Positions 15,096 to 38,559 of a stretch of 64,000 bases of DNA are shown in pieces (the first letter of the stretch is position 1; each line of letters opens with the position of its first letter). Under the pieces are notes generated by a model that searched no databases, was not told the DNA's origin, and worked only from the letters and a program-made list of their open reading frames with translations. This stretch comes from Nitrospira sp. (lineage in GTDB: Bacteria; Nitrospirota; Nitrospiria; Nitrospirales; Nitrospiraceae). The translations under genes were made by a program, and so were the position numbers. The stretch is taken from contig JAEURX010000040.1 in the NCBI GenBank assembly GCA_016788885.1, positions 1-64,000 of the forward strand. The letters are read 5' to 3'.

Positions 15096-16505
15096 CTACA
15101 CGTCGTAATACAGGAAAAACTCATACGGATGCGGCCGCAACCGCATGGTATCGACTTCCTTGGTCCGCTTGTATCCGATCCACGCCTCGATGAGGTCCTC
15201 GCTGAACACCCCGCCTTTGAGGAGGAACTGATGGTCCTTCTCCAGATGATTGAGCGCCTCGTCAAGGCTGCCTGGCATGGTGCGGATCTTCGCGGCTTCT
15301 TTGGCTTCGAGATCGTACAGATCCTTCTCAGCCGGCTCTCCCGGATTGATCTTGTTCTCGATGCCGTCCAGACCCGCCATCAGCATGGCCGCAAAGGCCA
15401 GGTACGGATTGGCAGCCGGGTCCGGGAAACGCACTTCGATCCGCTTCGCCTTCGGGCTCGGGGAGTACATGGGAATACGAATACCAGCCGACCGGTTACG
15501 GCTCGAGTAGGCCAACAACACCGGCGCTTCAAATCCCGGCGTCAATCGTTTGTATGAGTTGGTCGACGGGTTGGTGAAAGCCGCCAGCGCGGGCGCGTGC
15601 TTCAGAATGCCACCGATGTAGTGCAGGCACATCTGCGAGACGCCGGCATATTCCTTCCCGGCAAACAGCGGCTTGCCGTCCTTCCAGATGCTCTGGTGGG
15701 TGTGCATGCCCGATCCGTTATCGCCAAAAATCGGCTTCGGCATGAAGGTCACCGTCTTCCCATGGCGACGCGCAACGTTCTTGACGATGTACTTGAACAT
15801 CATCATTTTGTCGGCGGTCCTCAGAAGGCTATCGAAGCGAATATCGATTTCCGCCTGCCCCGCCGTCGCCACTTCGTGGTGATGCTTTTCGGTGGCGATG
15901 CCCGCTTTTTCCATTTCCAAAATCATTTCCGTGCGGATGTCCTGTTGCGTATCCGTCGGCGCAACCGGGAAATAGCCTTCCTTGTGCCGGATCTTGCCGC
16001 CCAGGTTGACGCCCTCCTGCCCCATGTTCCACACGCCTTCATCCGAATCGATGTGGTAGTAGGCACTGTGGTTCGTCTGGTCGTAGCGGGCATGGTCGAA
16101 AATGAAGAACTCGGCTTCAGGCCCCCAGTAGGAGGTGTCGCCGATCTTAGTACTCTGGAGATACTTTTCCGCCTTCTGGGCGATAAATCGCGGATCGCGG
16201 TCGTACATTTCGCGCGTGATTGGATCGACCACATTTCCGATCAGGCTCAGGGTGGGCACGGAGCAAAAGGGATCCATGCAGGCGGTTGCCGGGTCCGGCA
16301 CGAGCAGCATGTCGCTGTTGTTGATCGCCCTCCAGCCGCGAATCGACGACCCGTCGAGTCCGGATCCGTCCTTGAACAGGCCCTCGGTCAGCTCACTGAC
16401 AGGAATTGTAAAATGCTGCCAGGTGCCGATCAGGTCGACGAACTTCATGTCCACGACCTGGACCTTATTCTTCTTTGCAAAATCTAACACCTCACGAACG
16501 TTCAT
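15096..16505 (-). CDS. glnA: Glutamine synthetase type I (GlnA), 469 aa
   Basis: Makes glutamine from glutamate, ammonium and ATP; the entry point of ammonium into metabolism. All core motifs are present: [12 protein letters not shown] (beta-grasp part), [15 protein letters not shown], the NRSAGIRIP arginine motif and [12 protein letters not shown]. The adenylylation site is Tyr397 in KDLYDLE, the same number as in enterobacteria, consistent with control by the GlnE-like proteins at 883-5044. AAGGAGGAGG precedes the ATG. It is the last gene of the porin-amtB-glnB-glnD-glnA run, 51 bases after glnD. Confidence 0.98.
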
Positions 16506-16556: not shown

Positions 16557-19241
16557 TTACGCCGCATGAGCCCCAAGAAACACTTCAATCTCATTGAGAA
16601 TCGACGCCCGGATCGTTTCCAGGCGACCGGCCTCTTCCACCTTCTTCCCGTCCACACCGGTCACATAAAACACGTCGGCCACCTGATCGAGCCGGGTGGA
16701 AATCCGGGACGCATGCACCGACAAGCCCAATTGAAAAATGGCATTCGTGATAATGTACAGCAATCCCTGCCGATCATCCGCAAAAACATCAAGAATCGTA
16801 AACCGGTCGGATGTCTCGTTGTCGATGCGGACTTCCGCCGGTTGCCGATGGGCGGGCAATGATCGACCCAAGTGCAAGCGGGCACCGCGCCGCATCACGG
16901 CGTCGATCGATTGGCGGCCGGTCAACACCTCGACGATCGTCGCGCCGATGGATTCGCATCGCTCCGCCGGCGGAGCGCCCTGATAGTCGGGGTCGGCAAC
17001 TTGGAAGGTATCGACGACAACGCCGTCTTTCCTGGTCACAATCTGCGCGTCCAGAATCTGCAACCCGCCTGCCGCCATCACCCCGGCAATTTTTGAAAAC
17101 AATCCCGGGATGAGATCATTATGCGCAATCACGGCATATTCGCAGGTGCCTAACGGAGCATTGAATTCCGTTTCGACCACCACCCCGCCATCCTGCAGAC
17201 GGCGGACGGCGCCAAGGTGAGCGGCAATGCGCCGGGGGCTCGTACCGTAGGCATACCGTAACGGAAACTGTTCGAGTTCCGAGCGGATCCAGGTTTTGTC
17301 GGACGGGGAATTGTGATCTCCCTGCGACTGGGCCGCCACTTCATCCGCAATGCGCGCCAGCCGCTGCGGCTCATCGGCTGTCTCGCGCTCGCCGGACACT
17401 TCCTGCATCGCCCGCAGATACAGTTCAACCAGGAGGGACTCTTTCCATTTCGTGAGCACATCAGGACCGACGGCGGCGATGTCCGCGGCGGTCAAGGCCA
17501 GCAATTTGCGCAACACTTCCGGCGTGCCGACTTCGCGCGCGAACGGCAACAGCACCTTTTCATCGTAGGGATCGCGGCGGAAAGCGGTATGGGCCATCAA
17601 CAAATGCCGATGGACCAGCATGATCAGCGTTCGCGATTCCCGCTCATCGAACCCCAGGCGCGCCGCCGTTTCCTCCGCCAACCGCTTGCCGACTTCACTA
17701 TGGTCTTCTTCATGGCCCTTCCCCAGATCGTGAAGAAGCAGGGCCAGATGGAGCAGATCTTTCCGCTTGATCTCCCGATACACCTCTCCGAGTACGCCCG
17801 CATGATCGGTGAGCGCTTCCGCTTTCGCCACGGCCAGGAGACTATGCTCGTCAACCGTGTACTTGTGATACTGATTGAATTGCATCAGCCCACGGACACG
17901 CGAGAACGCCGGCACCAACTTCTCCAGCAGATGCGCACGATGCATCGCCTCAAGGGTTTTGGCCGTACCAGGTCCAGCTAGGATCGACAGGAACGTGCGT
18001 CCGGTCTCCGGCGTATGAAACTGCTCGACGGTGAGGGTTTCGGCATGCCGGTGAATGTCTTCCAGAAGAGAGGGATCAATACTGAGCTTGCGCGACCTGG
18101 CGAGATTGAACAGGGTCAGCAACAACGACGGCTGCCCCAGCACCTGGGAACGCAGTTCAACCGGGACGGTCAACGCCTCGCCATCGACGGCGAAATACTG
18201 GTCGATGCGGGGAGACGGCAGCCATCGCACGATTCGCTGCCAGAGCGAGCGGCGGCGGCAGCGTTCGACAAATCGCATCAAGGCCACATGCAGCCCCATC
18301 GTATGCCGATAGTATTGCTGCATGAACTGCTCAACCGCGAGCAAATGCGGCTGGTCGGCAAAGCCCCAGTGTTTGGCCAGCCAGACCTGTTCATCAAACG
18401 TCAGAATTTCCTGCGCCATGCCGGCTCGAATATGCAGAAATGAACGGACCCGCAGCAGGAACTCACGCGCATCCTTGATCGCGCGATAGTCCGCTTGGGA
18501 CAGAATGCCGCGGTCGGACAATTCTCGGATGGTGGGCGCCTGAAATCGCGCTGAGCCGATCCATTGCAGCAAATGCAGGTCCCGCAACCCGCCTTGGCTC
18601 TTCTTGACGTTCGGCTCGAGCAGATAGACCGTCTCGCCGAACTTCTGGTACTCACGCTGCCGTTCAGCCACCTTCTGGTCGAGATACCCGTCAAATCCGC
18701 TCGACACGACCTTGCGCACATACCGCGCATGAAATTGCTGAAAGAGCTCGGGGCTTCCCGCCAGAAACCGGGCCTCCATCATGGAGGTACGAACCGTCAG
18801 ATCAGCCAAGCCCAAATCGATACAATCCTGAATAGTTCGCACGCTATGACCGACCTGAAATCCGATGTCCCACAGCGGATGCAGCACCTGCTTCACCAAC
18901 TCGGGGATCACCTTGGCCGCATCCTGGTGAAAGAGGAACATCAGGTCGATATCGGAGTGCGGCGCCAATTCCCGCCGACCATAGCCTCCGATTGCCACGA
19001 GACAGCAATGCTGAAATCCGGCCGTGGTCAGCGCCTCGCCGCCGGTTCGCGCCGCAGTTCGGTATCGGCCGACGATCAATCCATCGACCAGATCCGTGGT
19101 GGCTGCGACCACCTCGTCACCGGACGCCCCGGCCAACAACCGCTGCTGAATGGCCTGGCGCTGTTCAGCCAGTAGTTGGGACACCACAATGGGAGCCGCG
19201 TCGCGCACCAACTGCGAATTTGCGTCCAACGCCTGCGACAT
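16557..19241 (-). CDS. glnD: PII uridylyltransferase/uridylyl-removing enzyme (GlnD), 894 aa
   Basis: Glutamine sensor that adds UMP to PII when glutamine is scarce and removes it when plentiful. Domain order: nucleotidyltransferase near residue 87 (GGYGRRELAPHSDIDLMFLF), PII-UTase linker, HD hydrolase near residue 507 (HDLGKGHEEDHSEVGK), and two C-terminal ACT domains (about 700-890). Length is normal for the family. It starts two bases after the glnB stop, so enzyme and substrate are made from one mRNA. Confidence 0.97.
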   Translation of the reverse strand: MSQALDANSQLVRDAAPIVVSQLLAEQRQAIQQRLLAGASGDEVVAATTDLVDGLIVGRYRTAARTGGEALTTAGFQHCCLVAIGGYGRRELAPHSDIDLMFLFHQDAAKVIPELVKQVLHPLWDIGFQVGHSVRTIQDCIDLGLADLTVRTSMMEARFLAGSPELFQQFHARYVRKVVSSGFDGYLDQKVAERQREYQKFGETVYLLEPNVKKSQGGLRDLHLLQWIGSARFQAPTIRELSDRGILSQADYRAIKDAREFLLRVRSFLHIRAGMAQEILTFDEQVWLAKHWGFADQPHLLAVEQFMQQYYRHTMGLHVALMRFVERCRRRSLWQRIVRWLPSPRIDQYFAVDGEALTVPVELRSQVLGQPSLLLTLFNLARSRKLSIDPSLLEDIHRHAETLTVEQFHTPETGRTFLSILAGPGTAKTLEAMHRAHLLEKLVPAFSRVRGLMQFNQYHKYTVDEHSLLAVAKAEALTDHAGVLGEVYREIKRKDLLHLALLLHDLGKGHEEDHSEVGKRLAEETAARLGFDERESRTLIMLVHRHLLMAHTAFRRDPYDEKVLLPFAREVGTPEVLRKLLALTAADIAAVGPDVLTKWKESLLVELYLRAMQEVSGERETADEPQRLARIADEVAAQSQGDHNSPSDKTWIRSELEQFPLRYAYGTSPRRIAAHLGAVRRLQDGGVVVETEFNAPLGTCEYAVIAHNDLIPGLFSKIAGVMAAGGLQILDAQIVTRKDGVVVDTFQVADPDYQGAPPAERCESIGATIVEVLTGRQSIDAVMRRGARLHLGRSLPAHRQPAEVRIDNETSDRFTILDVFADDRQGLLYIITNAIFQLGLSVHASRISTRLDQVADVFYVTGVDGKKVEEAGRLETIRASILNEIEVFLGAHAA

Positions 19242-19243
19242 AC

Positions 19244-19627
<384 letters not shown>

Positions 19628-20959
19628 TCACGAATAGGCGCGTTCATTATGTTGACTCAAATCCAGACCGGTCGCTTCCTCTTCGGGTGAAACCCGCAGT
19701 CCCGTCATCGCATCGACCAATTTGAGGATGGCAAAGGTGCCGACCAGTGAGAAGACCGTCGTGACGACCACGACCAGGAGTTGGATGCCGAACAAACCGG
19801 GATTGCCGAAGAACAGTCCATCGGCGCCTCCGGCATTGACGACTTTGCTGGCGAAGAGACCCGTCGCCAACACTCCGATCACCCCCCCGACTCCGTGGAT
19901 GCCCACGACGTCAAGCGAGTCATCATAGCCGAATCGCCCCTTCCAGACAATCGCCGCGTAGCAGGACATGCCTGCCACCAACCCGATTGCGATCGCGGAT
20001 AACGGGCCGATATACCCGGCTGCCGGCGTCACCGTCGCCAGACCGGCGACCGCGCCGCTGGCCAATCCCAATACCGTAGGTTTCCCGCGATGCATCCATT
20101 CCGCACCACACCAGGAGATGGCGCCCATACAGGCCGCCGCATGTGACGCAATAATGGCCGAGACCGCCACGCCGTTCGCCCCCAATGCGCTGCCTCCATT
20201 AAATCCAAACCAGCCGAACCACAGGAACCCGGTCCCGAGCAACGTCATCGGCAAATTGTGGGGCGCCATGTAATCCGTTCCATAGCCCCGCCGCTTCCCC
20301 AGCACAATTGCGCAGATCAGCGCCGACGCGCCGGAACTGATATGGATCACGGCCCCTCCGGCGAAGTCCAGCGCCCCCATCTGCGCCAACCATCCGCCGC
20401 CCCAGATCCAATGGGCCAGCGGCACATACACCAGCACCGACCACATGGCGGCAAACAGCACGACCGATGTGAACCGTTTGCGTTCGGCAAAGGCGCCCGT
20501 AATCAGCGCCGGCGCAATGGCCGCAAACATCAGCTGAAACAACATGAAGGCCTGGTGTGGAATCGTTGGGCCGTATACGGCATGCGGCGCGCTGCCCACC
20601 CCGCTGAGGCCGATCCAGTCCAGCCCTCCGATCACCCCGCCTTTATCCGGTCCGAAAGCCAGGCTATAGCCGAACAAGATCCATAGCAGGCTGACCACGC
20701 TCAGGATCATGATGCTCTGCATGATCGTCCCAAGCACATTCTTCGTACGCACGAGCCCACCGTAAAAGAGCGCCAACCCCGGCATCAGCATCGCCAGCAC
20801 GAATGCCGACGACACCAGCACCCATGCCGTATCCCCGCTATCCACCTTGAGCGGTGCTGTCTCCGCCCAGGCGTGCCCCCCTCCGAGCCCCATGAGCAGG
20901 GCCAATCCTGCCGCCGCACCCACGATGACCGTTTTCCGCAGTGCCGATGCCTTCACCAT
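19628..20959 (-). CDS. amtB: Ammonium transporter AmtB, 443 aa
   Basis: Trimeric inner-membrane ammonium channel. A cleavable signal-like start (MVKASALRKTVIVGAAAGLALLM..AWA) is followed by eleven hydrophobic helices. Family motifs are visible: FYGGLVRTKN, DFAGGAVIHISSG, HNLPMTLLGTGFLWFGWFGF (with a conserved histidine) and DVVGIHGVGG with the second pore histidine. The ATG at 20959 follows GAAGGAGGAC closely; a GTG one codon later is a possible alternative. The gene lies between a porin and PII, a functional set for ammonium uptake and its control. Confidence 0.96.
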   Translation of the reverse strand: MVKASALRKTVIVGAAAGLALLMGLGGGHAWAETAPLKVDSGDTAWVLVSSAFVLAMLMPGLALFYGGLVRTKNVLGTIMQSIMILSVVSLLWILFGYSLAFGPDKGGVIGGLDWIGLSGVGSAPHAVYGPTIPHQAFMLFQLMFAAIAPALITGAFAERKRFTSVVLFAAMWSVLVYVPLAHWIWGGGWLAQMGALDFAGGAVIHISSGASALICAIVLGKRRGYGTDYMAPHNLPMTLLGTGFLWFGWFGFNGGSALGANGVAVSAIIASHAAACMGAISWCGAEWMHRGKPTVLGLASGAVAGLATVTPAAGYIGPLSAIAIGLVAGMSCYAAIVWKGRFGYDDSLDVVGIHGVGGVIGVLATGLFASKVVNAGGADGLFFGNPGLFGIQLLVVVVTTVFSLVGTFAILKLVDAMTGLRVSPEEEATGLDLSQHNERAYS

Positions 20960-21033
20960 GTCCTCCTTCGGCTGTGCCGCCTGCCGAAAGGCCTCCCCCT
21001 TCACACCGCAAAGAAGGAGGCCCAGGCGGAAGC

Positions 21034-21912
21034 TTAAAACGTCTTCGTGAACTTCAGCTTATAGAAGTCTTGATTGTCTGTCAGGTCTTTACCCACCGTG
21101 AACCGGAAGGCCATGTTCCCCGGCAGCTTCATTTCGACATACGGGCCGATCCAGCGGTAGTAGTCTTGCGCTGCGCCCGGCGCACTGCTGTCCCGCGTGG
21201 TCAACAAATGCTCATAGTGCGCGCCGAGAGACCACATGCTGTTCATGCGCATGCCGGCGCTGACCCAGTAGTGGAGGAAATCCCACGTCCCACGGCCGCC
21301 GGTCTGACTGGTGCCCAAGCAATTGGTATCGACGAGCCCGCTGCACCCGGTCGCGCCGCCTCCGCCGCTGCCGCCTTCACTGCGGATCGCCTTGTAGTAG
21401 CCCAGGTAGAACTCGCCCTCGAACCGATCATCGACATAGTTCGCAATGATGTTCGGCACCGCGCCTTCAAAGGCCGTGGTGCGCTCGTTGACGCTCCCGC
21501 CACCGTTTGGAAAGAACCCGCCGCGTGACGACAAGAGGCTGCCATGCACGAACCCGATCATCGGCGTCACGGACAAACGCTTGTCGAGGAACGTGAAGTT
21601 CAGACCCACGTCCGTTTCGAGCCAGGGGGCGTTGTCATGCACGCCCACGCCGCTGATCATGGTCCAATAGGTGAAATTAAAGGCGAGTGCGATGTTGTCG
21701 GTCAATCCGTAGGTTCCGTAGATGGAGGGATTGAATCCGAAGAAACTGTCGGCCTGCATCGCCATGGTCACCGACACGGGGTGTTTGGTGGTGTCCATCA
21801 GGTCGTCCGTCGTCGCGGCTTGTGCCTCGACGAGCACCCCGCCCGCACCACCCACCACCAATGCCAACCCCAGGACCCATGCCCGTGCCATTCGCCCAAC
21901 CAGCATATTCAT
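21034..21912 (-). CDS. Outer-membrane beta-barrel protein (putative porin) ahead of amtB, 292 aa
   Basis: Start ATG at 21912 with GGAGG five bases upstream; a signal peptide follows (MNMLVGRMARAWVLGLALVV, cleavage near VEAQA). The mature protein has alternating beta-strand patterns (IALAFNFTYW, DVGLNFTFLDKRLSVTPMIGF, FEGEFYLGYYKAIR) and ends in phenylalanine (KFTKTF), typical of outer-membrane barrels. The position suggests ammonium or small-solute entry, but the substrate is inferred only from neighbours. First gene of the run to glnA. Confidence 0.7.
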   Translation of the reverse strand: MNMLVGRMARAWVLGLALVVGGAGGVLVEAQAATTDDLMDTTKHPVSVTMAMQADSFFGFNPSIYGTYGLTDNIALAFNFTYWTMISGVGVHDNAPWLETDVGLNFTFLDKRLSVTPMIGFVHGSLLSSRGGFFPNGGGSVNERTTAFEGAVPNIIANYVDDRFEGEFYLGYYKAIRSEGGSGGGGATGCSGLVDTNCLGTSQTGGRGTWDFLHYWVSAGMRMNSMWSLGAHYEHLLTTRDSSAPGAAQDYYRWIGPYVEMKLPGNMAFRFTVGKDLTDNQDFYKLKFTKTF

Positions 21913-21990
21913 GACGCCTCCAAAGAGAGAAGAAGTAAATGTGCCCTGCCCCCACACCGTCATACCCGACGATCTGTGAGCCCCGTCTCT

Positions 21991-22032
21991 CTGGCGCCAT
22001 TGCCAGTGTTGCTGACCGACGTCGTTGTCGGT
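21991..22032 (-). promoter_or_regulatory. Hexaloop hairpin pair without terminator, upstream of porin-amtB operon
   Basis: Minus strand: ACCGAC-AACGAC-GTCGGT (22015-22032), 8-nt linker, CTGGC-AATGGC-GCCAG (21991-22006). Both loops have six bases with A1 and G4. No U tract follows. Instead the bases after hairpin 2 (AGAGAGA, 21986-21992) are complementary to TCTCTCT (21924-21930) just before the GGAGG of the porin, and GGCG/CGCC adds pairs over the Shine-Dalgarno. Hairpin 2 would exclude that helix, suggesting translational rather than terminator control. Confidence 0.55.
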
Positions 22033-22046
22033 CTGGATGCTGCGGT

Positions 22047-23816
22047 CTAACGATACCCGTTGGTAATCGGCATCCGGCGATCTTTTCCGAATGCCCGATG
22101 CGTAATCTTGATGCCGAGGGGTGCCTGCCGCCGCTTATACTCGCTGCGATCGACCATCGCCATCACGCGCACGACCGTCTCCCGCGCGAACCCCATCGCC
22201 ACGATGTCTTCCAACGCGCGGTCTTCCTCGACATAGGCTTTGAGAATCGGATCCAGGATAGCGTATGGCGGCAGACTGTCTTCATCTTTTTGGTCGGGGC
22301 GCAACTCCGCAGTCGGAGGCCGCTCCAGCACACGTTTGGGAATGACCGGCGCAGGCCCGACCAGATTTCGCAGATGCGACAACTCATACACCATGGTTTT
22401 GGGCACGTCCTTGATCACGGCAAATCCCCCGGCCATGTCGCCGTACAACGTGGCATAGCCGACACTCATCTCGCTTTTGTTCCCGGTGGTCAGGACCAGG
22501 TGGCCGAACTTGTTCGAATAGGCCATGAGCAGATTTCCGCGAATCCGCGCCTGCAGATTTTCCTCGGTCGTGTCCGGACGACTCCCGGCGAATGGCTTCG
22601 ATAACACCCGGAGATAGCTCTTGAAGGTCGTCGTGATCGAGAGGGTATCCACCTGAATGCGAAGACGTCTGGCCAAATCGGCGACATCCTCCCGACTGGT
22701 GCGCGAGGTGTAGGGCGACGGCATGAAGACCCCGAGCACATTGTCCGCACCCAGCGCATCGACCGCAATCACCGCCGTCAACGCCGAATCCACGCCGCCG
22801 CTCAATCCGATGACCACTCGCCTGAACCCATTCTTGAGCACATAATCCTGCACGCCGAGCACCAGTGCGCGGTAGGCTTCATCCAGGCGCTCCAAGGGCA
22901 TTTCCAGAGGCGGCATCACCGTCGACGACGTTTTTCTCGCCGGCACCCGCACCTCCACCCGGTCGACCAATGCCGCAACGCGCGGCGACAGCGGCTTCTT
23001 CCGGCCCTCCCCCTGGCGCGCCCGCCCAACCGCCGCCACGTCCAGGTCGGCAACCAACAGGTCCTGCGCGAAGGCCTTGCCCCTCGCTACGACTTCCCCC
23101 GTCTGGTCCACAATCACGCTACAGCCGTCGAACACCAGCTCATCTTGCCCGCCAACCGTGTTCGTATAGGTGACGATCACTCGATTCTCGCGGGCCCGCG
23201 TCGCCAACACCTGCTCCCGCATCCGGCTCTTGCCCACATGAAACGGCGAGGCATTGATGTTCACGATCACCTCGGCACCCGCCGCCGCTTGTGCCCGGGT
23301 GGGACCTTCAGGAAACCAAATGTCTTCGCAGATATTGATCCCAATCGTGGTGCCGTTGAGGATCAGCAGCGGGAGGCGCGTCCCAGGGTGAAAATACCGG
23401 CTCTCATCGAACACCCCGTAGTTCGGCAGGTGCCGTTTGCAGTAGTTCGCCACGATTCGGCGCTCGGCGAGCACCGCCGCCGAGTTGTACAAACCATGCC
23501 GACCGACAGCGGGCGTAGTCGCTACCTTGGACAGGGAGTCTCCCGTTCCATCACGCCCGACATACCCCACCACCACCACCAGACCATGGGCATCCGCGGC
23601 CAACGCCTTCAGCGCGCGCTGCGCGTCATCGACAAACCGAGCCTTGAACAACAAGTCTTCGGGAGGATAGCCGGTAATGGCCAATTCGGGGAATGCCACG
23701 AGGTCCGCTTTGGCCCGACGCGCTTCTTTGATCCAAGCCTTGATCAACGCGGTGTTCCCGTCGATATCGCCGACCGTCGGATTGATCTGGGCCATGGCCA
23801 CCCGCAAGAACCGCAT
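22047..23816 (-). CDS. nadE: Glutamine-dependent NAD+ synthetase, 589 aa
   Basis: Last step of NAD synthesis: amidates deamido-NAD+ with ammonia drawn from glutamine. The N-terminal nitrilase-type glutaminase (about 1-270) has the catalytic Cys in NICEDIWFPEGP; the C-terminal ATP-pyrophosphatase domain has the P-loop SGGVDSALTAV near residue 337 and TGNKSEMSVGYATLYGD. Start at 23816 is favoured because it overlaps the stop of a small upstream ORF (TGATG); ATG at 23795 is an alternative. As a glutamine consumer linked to redox cofactors it carries an ANTAR-type leader like the nitrogen operons nearby. Confidence 0.96.
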   Translation of the reverse strand: MRFLRVAMAQINPTVGDIDGNTALIKAWIKEARRAKADLVAFPELAITGYPPEDLLFKARFVDDAQRALKALAADAHGLVVVVGYVGRDGTGDSLSKVATTPAVGRHGLYNSAAVLAERRIVANYCKRHLPNYGVFDESRYFHPGTRLPLLILNGTTIGINICEDIWFPEGPTRAQAAAGAEVIVNINASPFHVGKSRMREQVLATRARENRVIVTYTNTVGGQDELVFDGCSVIVDQTGEVVARGKAFAQDLLVADLDVAAVGRARQGEGRKKPLSPRVAALVDRVEVRVPARKTSSTVMPPLEMPLERLDEAYRALVLGVQDYVLKNGFRRVVIGLSGGVDSALTAVIAVDALGADNVLGVFMPSPYTSRTSREDVADLARRLRIQVDTLSITTTFKSYLRVLSKPFAGSRPDTTEENLQARIRGNLLMAYSNKFGHLVLTTGNKSEMSVGYATLYGDMAGGFAVIKDVPKTMVYELSHLRNLVGPAPVIPKRVLERPPTAELRPDQKDEDSLPPYAILDPILKAYVEEDRALEDIVAMGFARETVVRVMAMVDRSEYKRRQAPLGIKITHRAFGKDRRMPITNGYR

Positions 23817-23959
23817 CAGCAGATTTCCCCGGCATGGGCAGCATGCTCAAATCGGTCATTCAACGAGGCCGCAAGGAGCTCAGACACCGAGGCGTACTGT
23901 GAGTCGTACGTCGAGGTGGATGATCGACTGAGAACGAAGTTGAGGGCCGATTTCAGCAT
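23816..23959 (-). CDS. Small ORF translationally coupled to nadE (47 aa)
   Basis: ATG at 23959 and a TGA that overlaps the nadE ATG as TGATG. The 47 codons favour G or C at third positions like real genes of this genome. The product begins MLKSALNFVLSRSSTST and contains DSQYASVSELLAASLNDRFEH; I recognise no family. The start is 7 bases downstream of the terminator U tract of the antiterminator, so it is the first thing translated when transcription continues. It may be a small protein or a leader that couples translation to nadE. The ribosome site is weak (GAGCAGC). Confidence 0.45.
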   Translation of the reverse strand: MLKSALNFVLSRSSTSTYDSQYASVSELLAASLNDRFEHAAHAGEIC

Positions 23960-23966
23960 GCTGCTC

Positions 23967-24066
23967 AAAAAAAAAGTCCTCGGACCCACCATATTCGGTG
24001 GACCAGAGGACGTCGTTGTCCTGCGCCATCTCTATAAGGGATAGCCTCCTGAGACTCCGTTGTCCC
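23967..24066 (-). promoter_or_regulatory. ANTAR-type antiterminator leader of nadE
   Basis: Minus strand: GGGAC-AACGGA-GTCTC (24051-24066, one G-U pair), 28-nt linker, AGGAC-AACGAC-GTCCT (24007-24022), then a terminator where GAGGAC (24006-24011, sharing the second hairpin) pairs with GTCCTC (23976-23981) around an inner stem, followed by nine U (23967-23975). Six-base loops with A1 and G4 in both hairpins. Confidence 0.8.
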
Positions 24067-24082
24067 TGGAAAAGCTGGCGAA

Positions 24083-24112
24083 GGTATAACACCAGCCGGA
24101 ATCGGCTGTCAA
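24083..24112 (-). promoter_or_regulatory. Sigma-70-like promoter of the nadE leader
   Basis: TTGACA (24107-24112), 18-bp spacer, TATACC (24083-24088) on the minus strand; the transcript would begin near 24076, ten bases before hexaloop hairpin 1. Confidence 0.7.
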
Positions 24113-24181
24113 CCGACAGAGAAGGGCTTTTCTGACAACCTCCACGGTCCCGGCGCCGGTCTTGTGTTACAATCCCGGCCC

Positions 24182-25096
24182 ATGCGCCGCATGATTCAGC
24201 AGATGATGTCGCCGACAAGAGGCCACCTGCGTGGCTGGAAAACCTGGCTGATTATCCTCTCGTGTCTCGTGCTGGTCGCCTGCAGCTCAACCTCTCCACT
24301 GACCTCCGTCGGCGAAGGGCCGTTGGGATCCGTCTCGCTTGAACGCTTGCCCAGCCGGGGTACCACCGCGAAGTACGGGAGTCCTCAAGCCGCCTTTCAA
24401 GCGTCTCATCCGGCCACAGTGTCCGCATCGGCCATCTCCCACTTGCTCTCCGGACTGTTCATCTCAGGCCTCGATCGACCAGGGACCGTACTGCGGCAGG
24501 AGCGCTATCCATTGTTCTCTCAGGAAGAGACAGAATTTCTCACTCCGCTGATCATGCGCGCCCTCTCACAGGCAGGGCCGGACCAACGGGTGCGGTTCAC
24601 CCTGCAGGATGACGGACTCATCACCCAAGGCACGTTGTACCTGCACAGGACGACGCTTCGGATCGGTCTTTCTCACTATCGTGTCTCTCAGGGGCACAGC
24701 GACCCCAGGCCGGCGGTGCTCAGCTTGTCGTTTGCGCCAGCAGACGCGCTCGTGCGGGACGATGTGCCCCAGTCCTGGATGAATATCGAACCGGAACAAC
24801 CTCGCGTCGCAGTGTCACTCGAGGCCCTGAATCAACTCCCCGCTGCCGTCCCCGCTCCGACCGCGAACAAAACAGTCGCTGAAGTTGCACCTATTCCAGC
24901 CTCACCCGTATCTGAACAGACCAGCCTTCAACAGGAGCTGCAGGCCACGAAGGACGTGGTGGTCAAGCAGGCGCAGGAACTCCAGCAACTCAAGGCGGAA
25001 TTGGAATCGCTGCGACGCCAGCTCACGGAAAAAGAATCCGCCGCCCCGAAGACAAGACCGAAAACTGCTCCTCGCAAAGCTGCCCCTACCCCCTGA
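24182..25096 (+). CDS. Lipoprotein with C-terminal coiled coil, paralogue of 38662-39612 (304 aa)
   Basis: Start at 24182 (MRRMIQQMM). A signal peptide ends in the lipobox LVAC, so the protein should be lipid-anchored. The body shares with the protein at 38662-39612 the pattern V.LER.P.R..., FQASHP, VFSQE/LFSQEE, a following L.P.I..AL.QA..DQ.V.F, and a C-terminal heptad region (QELQQLKAELESLRRQL) with a Lys/Pro-rich tail. No known domain could be named. It is divergent from the nadE leader. Function unknown. Confidence 0.75.
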   Translation: MRRMIQQMMSPTRGHLRGWKTWLIILSCLVLVACSSTSPLTSVGEGPLGSVSLERLPSRGTTAKYGSPQAAFQASHPATVSASAISHLLSGLFISGLDRPGTVLRQERYPLFSQEETEFLTPLIMRALSQAGPDQRVRFTLQDDGLITQGTLYLHRTTLRIGLSHYRVSQGHSDPRPAVLSLSFAPADALVRDDVPQSWMNIEPEQPRVAVSLEALNQLPAAVPAPTANKTVAEVAPIPASPVSEQTSLQQELQATKDVVVKQAQELQQLKAELESLRRQLTEKESAAPKTRPKTAPRKAAPTP

Positions 25097-27832: not shown

Positions 27833-29560
27833 TCAGAAGAGGAAGTAGCGCTGCGCCATCGGCAACACCTCAACCGGCTCGCATTTCAACAAGATGCCGT
27901 CCGCACGCACCTCATAGGTTTCCGAATCCACCTCGATCTGCGGCAGCGCGTCGTTCAACTTGAGATCACGCTTCCCGATGCTCCGACAGCCTTTCACAGC
28001 GGCCACGCGCTTTTGCAATCCCAACTGTTTCGGCACGTCGCGCTCCATCGCCTGTTGCGAGAGAAAGGTCAAACTTGTGCTAAACGGCGCCCGCCCGAAA
28101 CTGCCGAACATCGGCCGCGTCAACACCGGTTGCGGTGTCGGGATTGAAGCATTCGGATCGCCCATGGCTGCCGACATGGGAAACCCGCCTTTCAAGACGA
28201 TCTCAGGCTTCACGCCGAAGAACGCCGGTTTCCATAATACAAGATCGGCCAGCTTGCCGACTTCGATCGAGCCGACGTCATGAGCAATCCCATGGGCAAT
28301 CGCCGGGTTGATCGTATACTTCGCCACATACCGGCGCGCGCGCCAGTTGTCATGCAGGCCGTCCGACGCTTCAACACCATGTTCGGACAGATGCCCCCGC
28401 TGGAGCTTCATCTTGTGCGCCGTTTGCCAGGTGCGGATGATCACTTCGCCCACCCGCCCCATGGCCTGCGAATCGGACGACATAATGCTGATGGCGCCCA
28501 TATCGTGCAGGATATCCTCGGCCGCAATCGTCTCACGGCGGATACGCGACTCGGCGAAGGCGATGTCTTCCGGCACGCGCGGGTTCAAGTGATGGCAGAC
28601 CATGAGCATGTCGAGATGCTCATCCATCGTATTGACCGTGAACGGCATGGTGGGATTCGTCGACGACGGCAATACGTTCGGCTCACCGCACACTTTGATG
28701 ACGTCCGGCGCATGTCCGCCGCCGGCGCCTTCCGTATGGAATGAATGGATCGTCCGGCCCTTGAAGGCCTTGATCGTATCTTCCACAAACCCGGCTTCAT
28801 TAATGGTGTCCGTGTGAATGGCCACCTGGATGTCATACCGTTCCGCTACGCTGAGGCAAGTATCGATGGCGGCTGGAGTCGTCCCCCAATCCTCGTGCAG
28901 CTTCAGTCCGATCGCCCCCGCTTCGACCTGCTCGTTCAAACCTTCAGGCAGTGACGAATTCCCCTTGCCCAGGAACCCCAAGTTGATCGGGAACCCATCC
29001 GCCGCCTCCAGCATACGATGAATGTTCCATGGGCCAGGGGTGCAGGTCGTCGCATTCGTCCCGGTGACCGGGCCCGTCCCGCCGCCGATCAGCGTTGTCA
29101 GTCCGTTCGCCAGCGCTTCGGTGATGATTTGCGGGCAGATAAAATGGATATGCGTATCGATCCCGCCGGCGGTGATGATCTTTCCCTCAGCCGATAACAC
29201 CTCGGTGCAAGGCCCGATCTCCAGGCCTTTCGTGACGCCGTCCATGAGATCGGAATTTCCGGCCTTGCCGATGCCGACAATGCGGCCGCCCCTGATCCCG
29301 ATGTCCGCCTTCACCACGCCCCACCAGTCGAGGATGATCGCATTCGTGATGACGAGGTCCAAGCCGCCTTCCGCACGCGTAGCCGCCGGCGATTGTCCCA
29401 TGCCGTCTCGAATCACCTTCCCGCCGCCGAACTTGGCCTCTTCGCCAGGAACGGTCAGATCGCGAGTGATCTCGACCAGCAGGTCCGTATCGGCCAACCG
29501 GATGCGATCACCAGCAGTAGGCCCATACAGGTCGTTGTATTGGCGTCTGGGAATCTTCAT
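27833..29560 (-). CDS. ureC: Urease subunit alpha (UreC), 575 aa
   Basis: Catalytic subunit hydrolysing urea to ammonia and CO2 at a dinuclear nickel site. Nickel-binding and catalytic motifs: [13 protein letters not shown], the carbamylated lysine in [22 protein letters not shown] and [12 protein letters not shown]. The flap region is in [21 protein letters not shown]. Start [15 protein letters not shown] at 29560 is the family start. ureB and ureC are separated by repeat R2, an unusually wide gap for urease structural genes. Confidence 0.98.
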
Positions 29561-29566
29561 GGTAGT

Positions 29567-29699
29567 CGGCTGCTGAAAATGGCTCCCAGCTTCGTTCTCG
29601 GCACGCCACAATCCTCAACGTACCGCTGCGGGTACGCTTCCGGTTGTGCTGCGCCTGCGGCCTTGCTGGAGTGCCATTTTGAGCAGCCGTGCCCCCTTC
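29567..29699 (-). repeat. Dispersed palindromic repeat, copy R2 (inverted)
   Basis: On the minus strand it reads CGGCTGCTCAAAATGGC..., GGCCGCAGGCG, GTACCCGCAGCGGTAC, GTTGAGGATTGTG, GCCGAGAACG and ATTTTCAGCAGCCG; ends form an inverted repeat (CGGCTGCT/AGCAGCCG). It fills the ureB-ureC gap. Confidence 0.8.
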
Positions 29700-37008: not shown

Positions 37009-38379
37009 CTAAAAGTTGTACCAAGTCGACAGCATGAAATTGTCCCCGGCGAAATGCTCCCTCGTGGACCATTCGGTCATGAGGTGATTCCACTCCAGGG
37101 ACGCGTACAAGTCGCCCCAAATGTGACGGACGGCTGTGAGATAGGTGCGGTGATTCAGTATGTATTGTGTATCTGCACCGGCGGTTGTGCCGTTCAGGTC
37201 GGAGTTCAATGGATTGTCGAACCCGTATCCGGCAATGAGCGTGAGTTGGCGATCATACGCGTAATCCAACTCGCCCCATCCGACCACGGTCCTGATGGCC
37301 TTGCCGGTGCCCAAGTTGCGCTCCTGGCCGAACCGGAAGAACTCCACGCCTAGCGCTTGTCCATAGGCGATCTCACCGGTGAATTTCAGTCTATTCGTAA
37401 TGGGCACGGCCAGTTCAGCCCCGACGAGATAGGAATTGATGTCCTGACCGGAAGGAATGCCGCCCGCCGTGGGCGCGGACCGGTAATGCCGGAAGGCGGC
37501 ATTCAGCGCCACCATGAAGCCCGCCTGGTCACCAGTTCCCATATAGGCGAAACGGGTCCCGACATAGGGCATTTGCACCGGATCATTGAAGGCATTTTCA
37601 GAACAGGCGAATCCGCTGCTGCCGCAACTGCCCGGTGCTGCCGCCGCTGCGCCGGCCCCTTGGAAAGTCCGTCGTTGCGTCTGCGGCTGAATGGCTGACA
37701 GTCCGCGCTCGAATCGCATGACGGTCAGCAGGCCGTTGACGTTTTCGGTGAATTGATGTTTCACGGTGACCTGCGGAAGACGCTGCCACAGATTGCCATT
37801 GTAGCCCATGATGGAGAAATCGATCAGGTTCGGATGGGAGGACATGATCGGCGTCCAATCCATACCAGCCGTGATGGTGGTCCGACTATTGTTGGGAGAA
37901 TATTTGACGTTCGCCAACCGCAAGCGAGGGGAGATGTTTCCCGCATTGTCGGTTTGGCTGTAGAAGTCCGCTTCCACGACACCCGTCAACGAATGGGTGC
38001 CGTCGGTTCGATCCGCGCGTAACCCGAATACGCTGTAGCGCGGATTCAACGTCGATGAGGCGTTGCTGCTTTTTCCTGCCGCGGTCGCATAGCCATTGAA
38101 CTGGCCCGGATCGAGCGGGTTGGTGTTCCGGTTGCTGTAAATCCCGTCTAATTCGATACGACCGTACGGCACAATACTGCCCTTGCCCTCGCCGGCAAAG
38201 GTGGGCGTCACACAGCCACCGCAAATCACTGCTGGTGGCGCTTCCACTTCCCGCGAGAGTCGCCCGGCCCCGGCCGCCTCTCCGGCACTCTGTTCCTCTG
38301 CTCCCACCGACGTGGTGATGGCCATGGCCACCATGACACTCACGCAGAACGCAATTTTTCTTAGCCCCCGTATCTCCAT
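37009..38379 (-). CDS. Outer-membrane porin of the urea operon, 456 aa
   Basis: ATG at 38379 (AGGAGG nine bases upstream) gives a signal peptide (RKIAFCVSVMVAMAITTSVGAEE). The mature chain shows beta-strand periodicity (IVPYGRIELDGIYSN, HSLTGVVEADFYSQ, FTGEIAYGQALGVEFF) and ends in STWYNF, a beta-barrel C-terminus. It is the first gene of the urt-ure run, so passage of urea or short amides through the outer membrane is the best guess. A pair of cysteines near the mature start (VICGGCVTPTF) is unusual for porins. Confidence 0.8.
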   Translation of the reverse strand: MEIRGLRKIAFCVSVMVAMAITTSVGAEEQSAGEAAGAGRLSREVEAPPAVICGGCVTPTFAGEGKGSIVPYGRIELDGIYSNRNTNPLDPGQFNGYATAAGKSSNASSTLNPRYSVFGLRADRTDGTHSLTGVVEADFYSQTDNAGNISPRLRLANVKYSPNNSRTTITAGMDWTPIMSSHPNLIDFSIMGYNGNLWQRLPQVTVKHQFTENVNGLLTVMRFERGLSAIQPQTQRRTFQGAGAAAAAPGSCGSSGFACSENAFNDPVQMPYVGTRFAYMGTGDQAGFMVALNAAFRHYRSAPTAGGIPSGQDINSYLVGAELAVPITNRLKFTGEIAYGQALGVEFFRFGQERNLGTGKAIRTVVGWGELDYAYDRQLTLIAGYGFDNPLNSDLNGTTAGADTQYILNHRTYLTAVRHIWGDLYASLEWNHLMTEWSTREHFAGDNFMLSTWYNF

Positions 38380-38439
38380 CCTGGTCGCCCTCCTGGTTCG
38401 GAACGATGTGACTGTCACCGGCCGGATGGGCTTGCAGGC

Positions 38440-38536
38440 AAAAAAAAACGCCCTTCCGGTCCAACCGTTGGACCAAAAGGACGTCATTGTCCTCTGCCTT
38501 TGTAGCGTCTGTGAAAATTCAGGACGTCGTTGTCCT
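38440..38536 (-). promoter_or_regulatory. ANTAR-type antiterminator leader of the porin-urt-ure operon
   Basis: Minus strand: AGGAC-AACGAC-GTCCT (38521-38536), 27-nt linker, AGGAC-AATGAC-GTCCT (38478-38493), then a terminator: ACGTCCTTTT pairs with GGAAGGGCGT (several G-U pairs) around the inner stem GGTCCAA/TTGGACC, followed by nine U (38440-38448). Hairpin 2 and terminator share GACGTCC and exclude each other. This is the clearest of the units. Confidence 0.85.
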
Positions 38537-38559
38537 GCCTTCACCGCACACGGGAGAGG

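Follow-up and report, generated by a model that had tools for sequence, protein, structure and literature searches.

The leader of the probable porin gene that stands first in a porin-amtB-glnB-glnD-glnA cluster of Nitrospira sp. is probably a translational ANTAR switch, in which translation would be activated by an ANTAR protein. It lies on the minus strand of the window, by which we mean the whole 64,000-nt stretch of DNA analysed, in the 134-nt gap between nadE and the porin gene. It carries two hexaloop hairpins, P1 (13 nt downstream of the nadE stop codon) and P2, and a long downstream hairpin that uses part of P2 to mask the porin ribosome binding site (RBS). The features are collected in Table 1.

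Table 1. Features of the porin leader and of its surroundings in the window
Feature	Coordinates	Strand	Score, family or remark
Classic ANTAR antiterminator (P1-P2 24066-24007) with U8 terminator, nadE leader	23967..24066	-	25.3 bits
nadE, glutamine-dependent NAD+ synthetase, upstream gene	22047..23816	-	PF02540/PF00795
P1 hexaloop hairpin GACCGAC-AACGAC-GTCGGTC, 7 bp, predicted ANTAR recruitment hairpin	22014..22033	-	
P2 hexaloop hairpin CTGGC-AATGGC-GCCAG, 5 bp, predicted ANTAR-bound switching hairpin	21991..22006	-	
Anti-start arm AUGGCGCC (loop and 3' stem of P2), pairs with 21918-21911	21993..22000	-	
Anti-SD-flank arm AGAGAGA, pairs with UCUCUCU 21930-21924	21986..21992	-	
P3 stalk hairpin within the anti-RBS hairpin	21948..21981	-	mean z -1.8 over 12 clades
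Masked ribosome site: UCUCUCU flank, SD GGAGG (21921-21917), spacer CGUC, AUG (21912-21910)	21910..21930	-	
First gene, DUF6733 protein, signal-peptide-like N-terminus, probable outer-membrane porin	21034..21912	-	PF20507
amtB, ammonium transporter	19628..21004	-	PF00909
glnB (P-II)	19244..19582	-	PF00543
glnD, P-II uridylyltransferase	16557..19241	-	PF08335
glnA, glutamine synthetase	15096..16505	-	PF00120/PF03951
Probable regulator, GAF-GAF-ANTAR protein; no other ANTAR protein was found in the genome	39632..41152	-	

The closest named loci of the porin gene are Nitrospira defluvii records, with a protein identity of up to 97%. The N-terminus of the protein is conserved starting at the ATG 21912; an in-frame ATG at 21963 was rejected as the start, being devoid of a Shine-Dalgarno sequence (SD) and missing in L003. 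On the 3' side of glnA, the minus strand continues with genes for a transporter of the formate/nitrite type and for a nitrite/sulfite reductase of the ferredoxin type. The gap between nadE and the porin gene showed no sigma-70-like promoter; for a sigma-54 promoter, the leader was judged by eye alone. Rfam returned nothing at gathering scores in the porin-leader region, and one meaningless match below gathering.

Both hexaloop hairpins lie where the earlier note had placed them, and both six-base loops (AACGAC in P1 and AATGGC in P2) carry A1 and G4. They are separated by the linker AGCAACA, whose 7 nt is a permissive length for an ANTAR-target RNA (5-12 nt in eut leaders, PMC3369931), and the genome encodes an ANTAR protein. 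A covariance model of the P1-P2 module (R1), composed of the porin leader, its relatives and antiterminators, matched this position with 62 bits and an E value of 3e-14 across the whole genome, a score obtained with a model partly trained on the same leader. Scanning the whole window for hexaloop pairs gave one further pair of like anatomy, at 38537-38476.

The arm AUGGCGCC, formed by the loop and 3' stem of P2, is complementary to GGCGUCAU, that is, to the final GG of the SD, the spacer and the AU of the start codon. A second segment pairs AGAGAGA with the UCUCUCU that flanks the SD, and UUGGA (21923-21919) bulges out between the two. The pairing of 21986-21996 with 21915-21930 proposed in the earlier note is therefore real, but it is the middle of a larger helix, which hides the start codon as well. 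P2 and this anti-RBS helix have bases in common and are mutually exclusive. The stalk of the long hairpin, P3, has a clade-specific sequence, yet is a hairpin in most clades.

In foldings of the free RNA, the probability of P2 was about 0; the bases of its loop and 3' arm sat in the long anti-RBS hairpin. Forcing P1-P2 has a computed cost of 7.1 kcal/mol, which is the amount that protein binding would have to pay. The computed cost of opening the region from SD to AUG is 10.5 kcal/mol in the free leader versus 3.9 kcal/mol with P1-P2 held; the corresponding averages for 28 leaders are 8.9 and 5.1 kcal/mol. Holding P2 brought no computed gain in 4 of the 28 (L020, L016, L059 and L060), and in G000 some local SD pairing persists when P2 is held. 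The arm:RBS duplex reaches -25.2 kcal/mol, as compared to a mean of -11.4 (sd 3.8) and a best value of -19.8 for the window's 74 other ATG-start sites. Many of these ORFs are not genes, so the comparison is with a start-like background. None of the 74 pairs with the arm as strongly. Against dinucleotide shuffles, the anti-RBS hairpin of the window leader scored z = -3.4. Of 12 clade representatives, 11 scored between -2.0 and -4.5 and the remaining one, L020, scored 0.15 (mean of the 12, -3.1); the 12 values are not independent tests because the sequences are related. Conservation, folding and energetics across genera thus give good support to the central proposal of the earlier note, exclusion between P2 and the anti-RBS helix as a way of freeing the ribosome site, with the correction that the helix first described was too small and that the proposed switch draws on the loop and 3' arm of P2 itself.

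The module itself is common to classic antiterminators, and the main alternative is that the porin leader is one of them with a degenerate or Rho-dependent terminator, the long hairpin or the untranslated RNA stopping the polymerase and the ANTAR protein preventing this. Among the non-porin ANTAR RNAs fetched from Nitrospiraceae, 58 of 60 have a U-tract terminator that uses the 3' arm of P2. The remaining two are L184, a terminator-like element whose U tract is weak, and L182, probably a false match. Untranslated mRNA would, moreover, bring polarity. However, no terminator-like site was detected by a simple scan of the minus strand over 21850-24300. Since the same scan also missed the terminator of the nadE leader, which is plain by eye, 28 leaders were also read to check that the porin leader lacks a terminator, and none has a U tract after the anti-RBS hairpin. 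The lack of a terminator behind the hairpin pair, claimed before, is confirmed. In the window leader, no intrinsic terminator follows P2 or P3, and P2 overlaps no U-tract terminator; the T5 run found after P3 in one relative (L005), which would suit antitermination, is unshared. In addition, the 3' arm of the anti-RBS hairpin ends within the start codon, and P3 does not overlap P2, so that P3 would not be switched. We consider antitermination at this site unlikely: in the porin leader, the terminator is replaced by an RBS-masking hairpin.

It is less probable still that ANTAR binding represses translation here, as in mycobacteria, or merely stabilises or processes the mRNA. Repression is the translational ANTAR mode that has been reported (PMC8164766), and the position of P1-P2 just past the nadE stop codon would be a plausible decay or processing junction. 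Nevertheless, P1-P2 overlaps neither the RBS nor the start codon, and P2 ends 70 nt ahead of the SD, which makes it unlikely that the ribosome site is covered when protein is bound. With P2 held, the cost of opening the RBS falls rather than rises in most leaders, and an arm complementary to the start site is present across genera.

The leader recurs in 27 relatives from four genera (g1, g2, g6 and g15), N. moscoviensis included, and precedes the orthologous porin gene in its own genus and in the three further ones. Among the relatives, compensatory changes occur at two pairs of P1, whose cells are 100% paired, and its loop varies outside A1/G4. The P2 sequence is nearly fixed, loop included; a double duty in protein binding and start-site pairing would explain this near-invariance. 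A1 is replaced by G1 in loop 2 of L020 and in loop 1 of L059 and L060. The last two, like L220 and L084, are leaders of genus g6, and the P1 loops of these four read AAGGGA or GAAGGG/GAAGTG; in L059 and L060, loop 1 departs from the A1 rule with G4 kept.

In the proximal part of the anti-RBS helix, pairing holds for 97.3% of cells, as compared to 30-61% when the alignment of the two strands is slid by 1-3. Changes are one-sided throughout (G-C/G-U) and fall mostly in the SD-AUG spacer, whose variants are CGUC, CGCC and UGCC, plus CGUU in L018, which is left out of the 97.3% count. The helix is broken in two leaders: L020 has lost both A1 of loop 2 and the helix, and one pair is broken in L016. 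The conservation of the anti-SD pairing, whose lack would have refuted the switch according to the earlier note, was therefore observed as pairing, but no compensatory double change occurred in the anti-RBS helix. Of the distinct GGAGG-N4-ATG contexts, 15 of 16 from porin genes fit the arm versus 1 of 12 others, the exception being L064, an unrelated start site. Swapping arms between clades weakened whole-arm pairing (p 0.006); the distal AGAGA:UCUCU segment alone did not beat the swaps (p 0.23), and its covariation was not significant. The pairing is thus strongly conserved, whereas its covariation is weak. That P1-P2 is real and its RBS complementarity a coincidence, with GGAGG-YGYC-AUG kept for ribosomes and P2 GC-rich and partly self-complementary, would fit the missing compensatory changes, the match of L064 and the failure of the distal segment, but is very improbable given that none of the 74 start sites pairs equally well, that the fit separates porin contexts from the others and that the hairpin z-scores are low across clades.

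Two genomes, G040 and G088, have the porin gene with no P1-P2 ahead of it. G040 retains the upstream element at the nadE position, which indicates that the translational layer is optional.

Taken together, these results describe an SD/AUG-masking helix, predicted and conserved, that is mutually exclusive with P2, and they point to ANTAR-activated translation of the porin gene. From its sequence, the leader can form either P2 or the long anti-RBS hairpin, never both. According to the computed energies, the anti-RBS hairpin is favoured by about 7 kcal/mol without protein, masking the porin ribosome site. The GAF-GAF-ANTAR protein, presumably activated by a nitrogen-related signal, may then bind P1 and P2; by holding P2 shut, it would free the ribosome site and allow translation to begin. 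The antiterminator of the nadE leader, 2 kb upstream, may already gate the transcription that reaches the porin leader, so one regulator would act twice per transcript, on its elongation and, further down, on its translation. We somewhat favour this picture of one ANTAR protein acting on one transcript at two levels, antitermination before nadE and translational activation before the porin gene. The sign of the putative ON switch agrees with the polarity of the antiterminators, which are presumably under the same protein.

The ANTAR gene lies 17.6 kb from the porin leader, and its listed start codon is probably too far upstream. R1 elements were found in all 40 ANTAR-bearing genomes tried. Genomes with no detected ANTAR protein had an R1 match in 8 of 20 cases, five of the eight being less complete assemblies; in well-assembled ANTAR-less genomes there were matches in 3 of 15, two of the three apparently inside coding sequence. 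The third, L202 (G097:C17:157109-157169), is a real-looking antiterminator, either a relic or a sign of a missed protein. In most genomes that have the porin leader, the position of the nadE leader, about 2 kb upstream, is also occupied by a classic element.

The ANTAR RNA motif was defined by Ramesh et al. (2012), with links to nitrogen genes including those for P-II and ammonium transporters (PMC3369931); the structural basis of the ANTAR-RNA system is given in PMC8934654. Like the targets of the antiterminators NasR, AmiR and EutV (PMC3369931, PMC8934654), the porin leader has two A1/G4 hexaloop hairpins ahead of nitrogen genes, a P2 3' arm common to a competing downstream hairpin and a protein-bound state predicted to be ON. 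In contrast to them, its competing hairpin covers the SD flank, the spacer and the start codon, and there is no U-tract terminator. With the RBS-overlapping actinobacterial ANTAR RNAs (PMC8164766), it shares a predicted action on translation; in those, P1-P2 contains the RBS or the AUG and the bound protein represses, whereas here P1-P2 lies upstream and binding should activate. Translational control by ANTAR proteins, which the earlier note had presented as a new mode, is not new: Ramesh et al. proposed in 2012 that terminator-less matches might control translation initiation (PMC3369931), and activated ANTAR protein represses translation in M. tuberculosis and M. smegmatis, possibly via RBS occlusion (PMC8164766). 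What would be new is activation through release of a sequestered RBS. No description of such ANTAR-dependent release, nor of Nitrospira ANTAR RNAs, was found in the searched literature, which was mostly outside subscription journals.

In translational ON riboswitches, a ligand-stabilised helix sequesters the anti-RBS arm and the SD is freed. The porin leader would differ in that its ligand is the ANTAR protein and not a metabolite. PAL (Weber et al. 2019, cited in PMC8934654) is reportedly a light-receptor ANTAR protein that binds RNA and regulates translation; the system proposed here shares with it the ANTAR domain, the predicted RNA binding and the predicted translational control, and PAL differs in being light-controlled. 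If the two-level picture is true, the P2-swap module can have its terminator exchanged for an RBS, like the expression platforms of riboswitches. As a translational switch, the leader would be a case of an ANTAR protein that activates translation by RBS release, a protein replacing the riboswitch ligand. The genes for ammonium uptake and glutamine synthesis of these globally important nitrifiers would then be under a single nitrogen-linked RNA-binding regulator, and the locus would offer a clean natural comparison in which the output of one protein and one RNA module is a terminator in some places and an RBS in another.

Several further elements were observed. R1 also matches 14979-14854, ahead of the nitrite transporter gene, as an antiterminator, and in this element, as in that of nadE, the 3' arm of P2 runs on into a U-tract terminator. 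The gap between glnA and the nitrite transporter gene appears to hold tandem ANTAR antiterminators (15021-14820, minus strand), the first with AGGC-AACGAC-GCCT, ACGGAC-AATGGC-GTCCGT and a U-tract terminator, the second with GCCGAC-GTTGAA-GTCGGC, AGGAC-AAAGAC-GTCCT and a U8 terminator. In other genera, TGGC-type P2 antiterminators are located 3' of glnA (L143, L153, L166, L168 and L221), before genes for an NtrC-like sigma-54 activator or an NMT1-like transporter. Elements with a CTGGC-type P2 in this position were considered as ancestors of the porin leader and rejected, as they are classic antiterminators before NtrC-like/NMT1-like genes. An Rfam 5_ureB_sRNA match (29119-29410, plus strand, 87.8 bits) is antisense to the minus-strand ORF 27833-29611 and lies near urease accessory genes; it may merely mirror conserved urease coding sequence. 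Finally, the minus strand at 38537-38440 carries a classic ANTAR antiterminator, with P1 and P2 hexaloops followed by a U-tract terminator of 18 pairs, which precedes a second porin-like gene, unassigned but outer-membrane-like, at 37009-38544 as listed.
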